Assembly: GCA_947479755.1 (NCBI GenBank)
Contig: CANKAM010000012.1
Coordinates: forward strand, 1 to 64,000
DNA length: 64,000 nt
Reading direction: 5' to 3'
From: Bacteroidota bacterium
GTDB lineage: Bacteria; Bacteroidota; Bacteroidia; SXHM01
The notes under the pieces: generated by a model
What the model saw: only the letters and a program-made list of their open reading frames with translations
What the model was told of the DNA's origin: nothing
Database searches by the model: none
Part shown: positions 56,284-57,165 of the stretch, one piece after another
Position numbering within the stretch: the stretch's first letter is position 1
Layout: each line of letters starts with the position of its first letter
Made by a program: the position numbers and the translations under genes

Positions 56284-56322
56284 TAATTAATGTTTTATCT
56301 TATAATAAACATTATGTTAACT
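56284..56322. repeat. Imperfect palindrome at the left side of the membrane-protein gene
   Basis: TTAATTAATGTTTTAT (56284-56299) pairs with ATAAACATTATGTTAA (56307-56322), allowing small bulges. The right arm continues as ACATTATGTTAACTAAG, which recurs inverted with a 1-nt insertion in the palindrome at 57055-57074. It follows the dehydrogenase gene. Confidence 0.55.
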
Positions 56323-56389
56323 AAGCGCACAAGCCAACCGAAGCTGCCCTCACAGTTAACGCCTACTAGATTAACGAGAAACAACACTC

Positions 56390-56827
56390 CTAATAAGGGT
56401 AATCAAAAATCGCTACGGAAATTACTAAGACAACTAAGGCGATTAGCGAAAAAATATAGCAGCATTTTTCAAAGAAAAGATAAACGGGTCGAAGGGTTAT
56501 TAAATCTTCAAAAGAGTTATCCTTATCGTGGTCGTATTCTTTTATTTTCGACATCAAACTTTTATTTATCTCACCCAGCATTGCTATCTCGCCATATAAA
56601 AAGATTGTGCCACATAGGATACTTACCAGAAATCCGAGTATTGGGGTTATAAATAAGCAATACTCTAAATAAGTTTCAGATTTTACAGATTTAAGGGTAG
56701 TAACTATTGCAAGAATAGTTCCATTCAGCAGGATAATATTTTTAACCCAATCTCTTTTTGCCTCATTAAAATAAGTGGCGTATTTATTATAGAGATTAAC
56801 TAATTCTAAAATCCCGTTTTCTGACAT
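56390..56827 (-). CDS. Small membrane protein, unknown, in a palindrome-flanked island
   Basis: A 145-residue protein: a soluble N-terminus (MSENGILELVNLYNKYATYF), hydrophobic segments at about residues 30-46, 57-80 and 121-141, and an acidic loop (KIKEYDHDKDNSFEDL) between the last two. No signal peptide. The topology resembles SLATT-type and other small accessory membrane proteins, but I recognise no family. It stands alone between the dehydrogenase and TPR genes, with a palindrome on the left and folded elements on the right. An overlapping plus-strand frame (56290-56652) lacks protein-like composition. Confidence 0.7.
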   Translation of the reverse strand: MSENGILELVNLYNKYATYFNEAKRDWVKNIILLNGTILAIVTTLKSVKSETYLEYCLFITPILGFLVSILCGTIFLYGEIAMLGEINKSLMSKIKEYDHDKDNSFEDLITLRPVYLFFEKCCYIFSLIALVVLVISVAIFDYPY

Positions 56828-56897
56828 TTTGGTTTAATTAAAATCCGCTTCCCACAGCCCCTACACTTTTATTTTATCGGTTCTACTACTCCTTTAC

Positions 56898-57039
56898 TTT
56901 TACAACAGGAAGTTGTAAAATCGGAGCAGTAACCGAACGTTTGAGCCGCTCTGCTTTCAATCGCTGAAAAAGCGAACGTTTAAAATCGGTGTGAAAATAC
57001 ACCTTTACTTTTAAACTTTGAAAGCAGAGCGGCTCAAAC
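56898..57039. other. Strongly folded element with a possible three-way junction
   Basis: Segments in order: a perfect 9-bp hairpin TTTTACAAC/GTTGTAAAA with an AGGAA loop (56898-56920); a short TCGG/CCGA hairpin (56921-56936); then a perfect 22-bp outer stem (56939-56960 with 57018-57039; core GAGCCGCTCTGC) that encloses two further hairpins. These are TCGCT/AGCGA with a GAAAA loop (56961-56975) and a longer one (56978-57016: GTTTAAAA and GGTGT paired with ACACC and TTTTAAAC). Almost every base is paired. It lies in a 396-bp gene-free gap. It may be a structured RNA, a single-strand-folding recombination site or part of a mobile element; the class is unknown. Confidence 0.75.
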
Positions 57040-57054
57040 TTAAAATAAAAACCA

Positions 57055-57165
57055 AACTTAGTTAGACATAATGTGTCGTTATAGTCAAAAAATCAGTAGG
57101 TATAATTTGTCTTTTAAAGGTATGATGTTTTTCCCTATAACGCGACTTTATGTTAAGTAACTTAA
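57055..57165. other. attC-like imperfect palindrome
   Basis: Left arm TTAGACATAATGTGTCGTTA (57062-57081, continuing to 57084) pairs with the right arm at 57135-57156 (CTATAACGCGACTTTATGTT, then AA), with one bulged base and three mismatches, around an unpaired 50-nt centre. Bulges in one arm and a GTTRRRY-like end (GTTAGAC, GTTAAGT) are features of integron attC sites. On the minus strand the element starts ACTTAAC, which fits the RYYYAAC box. No integrase gene is in the window, so inverted ends of a small mobile element remain an alternative. Confidence 0.4.

Follow-up and report, generated by a model that had tools for sequence, protein, structure and literature searches.

The literature that we found describes Xer-exploiting elements as whole phages, satellites or islands, with sizes from several kilobases upwards. 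In CTXphi, the attachment sequences attP1 and attP2 are inverted and lie 90 bp apart; strand exchange is on the XerC side in CTXphi and XerD-first in TLCphi (PMC4246890). A second dif-like site, in inverted orientation, is present near one end of the Bacteroidetes microvirus proviruses BMV4-6 (PMC3091885). In dif-integrated gokushoviruses, the upstream dif is intact and the downstream dif is variable (PMC7062461). Our search of the literature, which omitted most subscription journals, did not turn up any account of dif elements below 1 kb in Bacteroidota, and priority is uncertain. Here we consider a large fold in a 64,000-nucleotide stretch of a Bacteroidota genome (contig CANKAM010000012.1; the whole stretch is called the window). 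We think it likely that the fold belongs to an 836-bp minimal Xer-exploiting element (mini-IMEX) inserted at dif, as its putative single-stranded DNA module.

The insertion (about 56312-57147, plus strand) is missing from five congeners, which have empty sites with collinear flanks: a TPR gene is kept on one side in all five, and in three of the five the collinearity extends to an oxidoreductase gene on the other. The ends float within a 9-bp direct repeat, TTATGTTAA, found at 56312-56320 and again at 57148-57156. The sequence of the empty site is CTTATAATAAACATTATGTTAAGTAACTTAAC. The window has CTTATAATAAACATTATGTTAAC running into TAAGCG at the left junction and CCCTATAACGCGACTTTATGTTAAGTAAC at the right junction.

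The left junction is a dif sequence (56295..56322, plus strand), TTATCTTATAA-TAAACA-TTATGTTAACT, with the XerC arm at 56295-56305, a 6-nt spacer at 56306-56311 and the XerD arm from 56312. The right arm matches the XerD arm of E. coli dif, and the assignment of arms rests on this match. The exact core, TATAATAAACATTATGTTAA, is present once per genome and in orthologous place in six congeneric genomes, the present one included. Where the contig of a congener was long enough for the test, the cumulative GC skew climbs, levels off at about 620-690 kb and then falls, and dif is at 660.6 kb. Across the class, 133 of 296 genomes have the consensus TATAAT-N5-TTATGTTAARTA, nearly always as a single copy; in several families the site is close to a stretch that matches a congener's gyrA contig, as it is in the window. 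Because of the single exact core per genome, its conserved position, the turn in GC skew, the gyrA neighbourhood and the class-wide consensus, the target is, on sequence grounds, the chromosomal dif site.

The right end has two dif-like sites of its own. One, S3 (57130..57158, plus strand), consists of a XerC arm (57130-57140), a 7-nt spacer CGCGACT (57141-57147) and a XerD arm (57148-57158). The other, S2 (57057..57084, minus strand), is inverted, also has a 7-nt spacer and is located 76 nt before S3. In a circular or single-stranded form, S2 as the first arm can pair with the right/left joint, which in the circularised element is predicted to read CTATAACGCGACTTTATGTTAACTAAG, and the product is a duplex dif-like hairpin. 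The spacer is 6 nt in native dif and 7 nt in the site of the element. Since the native spacer remains at the left and the spacer of the element is at the right, exchange would have been on the XerD side, provided that TTATGTTAA is the XerD arm.

These features can be compared with those of the known systems. As in CTXphi, the element is at dif, has no integrase of its own and has two inverted dif-like sites able to pair in single strand (S2 with S3 or the joint; about 90 bp apart in CTXphi against 76 nt here), and the spacer in the sites of the element is altered. However, CTXphi is a whole phage, whereas here 836 bp carry one gene; exchange is on the XerC side in the phage and on the XerD side here; and the present element keeps the native dif spacer at the left and has an additional large fold. 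The attachment site works like that of a CTXphi-type IMEX, yet the element is not a CTXphi-type phage, having no phage genes and another crossover side. TLCphi is likewise a small satellite at dif with XerD-first exchange, but it has a replication module and a double-stranded attP with a degenerate XerD arm. The pdif (Xer) modules of Acinetobacter plasmids are small too, with XerC/XerD sites in inverse orientation bounding their genes. They are on plasmids, however, with the sites flanking the gene, whereas here both sites form one end hairpin and the target is chromosomal dif.

The insertion has two open reading frames, one encoding a 145-aa membrane protein and the other overlapping it in antisense, which leaves one plausible gene. 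The cargo gene (56390..56827, minus strand) encodes an orphan protein with at least two membrane-spanning stretches (residues 58-76 and 123-141); searches of relatives, plasmids, phages, viral contigs and 84,980 genomes found no homologue. Its probable role is an accessory one, like that of moron or defence membrane proteins. None of the ORFs matches a recombinase family, so the insertion has no integrase of its own, and we infer that integration is catalysed by host XerC/XerD. Nor are there Rep, Zot or coat genes in the 836 bp.

Similar units are present at dif in other families. A class-wide search found eight right-type sites with a 7-nt spacer, and for six of them a native dif with a 6-nt spacer, oriented alike, is 467-1248 bp away (for the window, the left dif was taken from the exact-core search). 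The six are from the present genome and from G272, G183, G137, G104 and G088, representing six families, five besides its own. In all five elements that were read (the window, G272, G183, G137 and G104), an inverted partner is upstream of the right end, and G104 has further degenerate internal dif-like sites. In G183 and G104, a sequence resembling the left end, as read by eye, follows the right end, which suggests that these two hold tandem units. The cargo ORFs are short, about 80-155 aa, and several have one or two membrane-spanning stretches; G137 has no convincing ORF. The inverted-pair pattern itself is seen in at least 117 genome contigs and is concentrated in Bacteroidota: among the matches listed, about 71 of 80 loci belong to this phylum by title. 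Four viral contigs of 26-54 kb, resembling large dsDNA phages, have an inverted dif-like pair too, and in one of them a 147-aa minus-strand ORF with a membrane-like stretch directly follows the pair, as small membrane ORFs do in the mini-elements. In many genera of Flavobacteriaceae, a near-identical inverted partner, TTCTGGGATATTTTACATAATACTACATTATAGC, is found about 66 nt before the dif-like site, and may be a fixed part of the terminus in that family.

The main rival on the origin of the insert is that it is a decayed ssDNA provirus, of a micro- or inovirus, reduced to an attachment site, origin or packaging hairpins and one gene. Microvirus proviruses of Bacteroidota do occupy dif with the same two-site layout (PMC3091885), and the BMV and Alpavirinae proviruses share dif integration in this phylum and, in BMV4-6, the extra inverted site. 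However, those proviruses are about 5-6 kb long with capsid and Rep genes, of which the 836-bp insert has none. The five 0.47-1.25-kb units of other families repeat its layout with short ORFs and no viral genes by eye, and the cargo has no phage homologue. We consider descent from a provirus unlikely.

An integron gene cassette, brought to a secondary site by an integron integrase and with attC as its hairpin, would also combine one ORF with a terminal imperfect hairpin, and the target GTTAAGT fits GTTRRRY. Integron cassettes resemble the present element in the single orphan gene, the imperfect hairpin recombination site and the occasional tandem units. They differ in that site and target here are Xer/dif, without IntI. 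Indeed, the genome has no IntI above the cut-off, the right-end hairpin lacks a proper RYYYAAC (R'') box, and the target is the host dif, all of which makes a cassette in the strict sense highly improbable. The candidates for an integron integrase were just Xer/phage-type recombinases below the cut-off, one of them beside an IS91-like transposase, and they were rejected. At contig L047, 8580-9700, together with L046, 1-160, a tyrosine recombinase gene precedes an IS91-like transposase, the end of which is repeated at two contig ends of this genome.

The mini-IMEX also contains the fold, which the initial annotation had placed at 56898-57039 and had judged very unlikely to form by chance. That judgement is borne out by the folding energy: the minimum for this segment is -66 kcal/mol, whereas shuffled sequences average -27.4 (sd 2.95; z = -13.1), and none of 200 shuffles was as stable. 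With DNA parameters, 56850-57060 is also stable (z = -12.9), and the opposite (minus) strand of the same interval folds too, at -90 kcal/mol (z = -11.6). A fold does exist over the annotated extent, but its true limits are wider: with flanks included, the best pairing spans 56867-57050 (184 nt, -80.5 kcal/mol, several hairpins, no strand assigned), closed by a 10-bp stem (56867-56876/57041-57050). Within it, hairpin 1 (56877..56936) is imperfect, with 5+4+4+9 bp and an asymmetric internal loop TTTAC/TC. The annotated 9-bp hairpin is present at 56898-56920, but the 4-bp hairpin described next to it is not the best pairing once the flanks are included and is replaced by the longer hairpin 1. A perfect 22-bp stem (56939-56960/57018-57039) then encloses a 5-bp hairpin (56961-56975) and a two-part hairpin of 8 + 6 bp (56978-57016) that has the internal loop of hairpin 1 reversed; all three had been recognised before.

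The internal loop, TTTAC opposite TC (GUAAA/GA on the minus strand), is common to the imperfect hairpins at 56889-56926 and 56978-57016, in opposite orientations, and may be a motif for protein binding. The pattern CCTTTACTTTTA...TAAAATCGG of this loop was found in nine stretches of viral contigs, none with the fold, and these were judged to be chance matches. The motif CGCTCYGCT, shared by the 22-bp stem and two other units, was dropped as a common signature, being absent from the remaining units.

As to what the fold is, the initial annotation was right to set aside a simple terminator and right in seeing no hallmark of retron or group II RNAs. Among the options listed there, a single-strand recombination substrate comes nearest, although the Xer attachment hairpin itself is the adjoining structure at 57057-57147. 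A MITE or IS end, with the 22-bp arms as terminal inverted repeats, would account for the perfect inverted repeat. Yet the sequence is single copy in the genome, no target duplication is seen around the arms, and the whole fold sits inside a larger insertion with ends of its own; such an origin is scarcely credible.

The main functional rival of the DNA module is a cis-acting RNA: a structured leader at the 5' end of the minus-strand 145-aa gene, or else a small RNA that travels as second cargo. The minus strand is very stable, as described above, the fold is directly upstream of the cargo ATG at 56827, ending about 40 nt before it, and the cargo ORFs of several other units start on the same side. 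However, both strands fold, and G-T wobbles are rare: 1 of 73 pairs in the plus-strand fold of 56850-57060, against 8.9% in the minimum-energy folds of shuffles, and 5 of 79 in the minus strand. The low share in the plus-strand fold is partly by construction, as a perfect 22-bp stem excludes wobbles by definition. Rfam has no family matching the fold at either gathering or permissive thresholds. Long stems are also present in a unit whose ORF points the opposite way and inside an attachment loop.

The pattern of base changes bears on the same question. A search of the own genome and 100 relatives for homologues of the fold found just the palindrome itself and chance 24-35-bp matches without a partner strand, and because the window fold has no detectable homologue, covariation was measured on hairpins of related elements. 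In a Flavobacterium group of 12 loci with a hairpin right of the attachment site, 91% of stem cells are paired; 12 pairs are changed on both sides, with 41 double-change cells and 2 G-U cells, counts that common descent inflates, at loci whose placement at dif is not established. The covariation score is 0.347, against 0.02-0.08 with slid partners. These results support selection on the pairing of the hairpins in the Flavobacterium relatives. Wobble intermediates are nearly absent, which suggests that the hairpins act as DNA (or that one arm is copied from the other) and not as RNA. Since the Flavobacterium hairpins are almost without G-U and the window fold has one wobble in its 73 pairs, selection appears to act on DNA rather than RNA. 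A regulatory RNA is thus less favoured than a DNA module, and we rate it as quite improbable. At several Flavobacterium loci, accessory genes directly adjoin inverted dif-like attachment hairpins and covarying hairpins; by eye these genes are of NADAR, ImmA/IrrE with HTH, PIN-like, DUF3800 and AlbA_2 types, that is, defence- or toxin-antitoxin-like.

Long hairpins recur in the other units. With loops of 12 nt or more counted, the longest perfect stems among eight units are 22 bp (the window), 26, 25 and 23 bp, the other four having 11 bp or less. Such stems reach 22 bp in 3 of 7 units besides the window, a small and partly chosen set; this greatly exceeds the 3 of 1,242 control windows of 830 bp that half-overlap (0.24%). 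A perfect stem is not obligatory, because four of the eight units lack one of 22 bp or more. Twelve dif loci from other genomes, each with a single dif, have hardly any long perfect stems. More generally, perfect inverted repeats of at least 11 bp are about six times denser within 400 bp of inverted-pair sites than beyond 1 kb, in a count that leaves out one repeat-array locus and in which related loci are not independent. Two further loci have units of about 560-585 bp, flanked on both sides by inverted-pair sites, that have almost no ORF; they contain several long hairpins with stems of 12-19 bp and similar loops.

At the level of sequence, these comparisons establish the insertion, its target, the paired inverted dif-like sites, and the recurrence at dif in other families both of such units and of long hairpins. 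A plausible course of integration follows the CTXphi scheme in part. The mini-IMEX would enter the cell as single-stranded DNA, in which S2 and the right/left joint would pair, as the two sites do in CTXphi, to give a double-stranded dif-like hairpin for attachment. Judging from the target and site sequences, the host XerC/XerD complex would synapse this hairpin with dif. The element would then be inserted by a single exchange of strands, on the XerD side of the spacer, and replication would finish the process. As the left dif remains intact, the host is proposed to keep dimer resolution. The 184-nt fold would most likely act on the single-stranded form; its role is a guess among single-strand functions, such as a start site for the complementary strand, a signal for packaging or transfer by a helper, or support for folding of the attachment site. 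As to a helper phage, a Zot search of six element-bearing genomes found nothing, and the Phage_F (microvirus capsid) search, in which the control itself was silent, carries no information. The rule of a 6-nt native spacer, a 7-nt element spacer and XerD-side crossover makes the mechanism directly testable.

It is quite possible, though we hold it with less than even confidence, that Bacteroidota have an integron-like cassette system in which dif is the landing platform and host XerC/XerD serve as the integrase, the cassettes each having a single gene and being shorter than 1.3 kb with a terminal inverted-dif hairpin and often a large ssDNA fold, and tandem stacking at the terminus being possible. 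If so, the recurrent long perfect hairpins would be a signature of the single-stranded form and a handle for finding such elements. One-gene elements of 0.5-1.3 kb that occupy dif across several families of a single class, some of them as tandem units, would then make dif a general site of gene capture, like attI in integrons.
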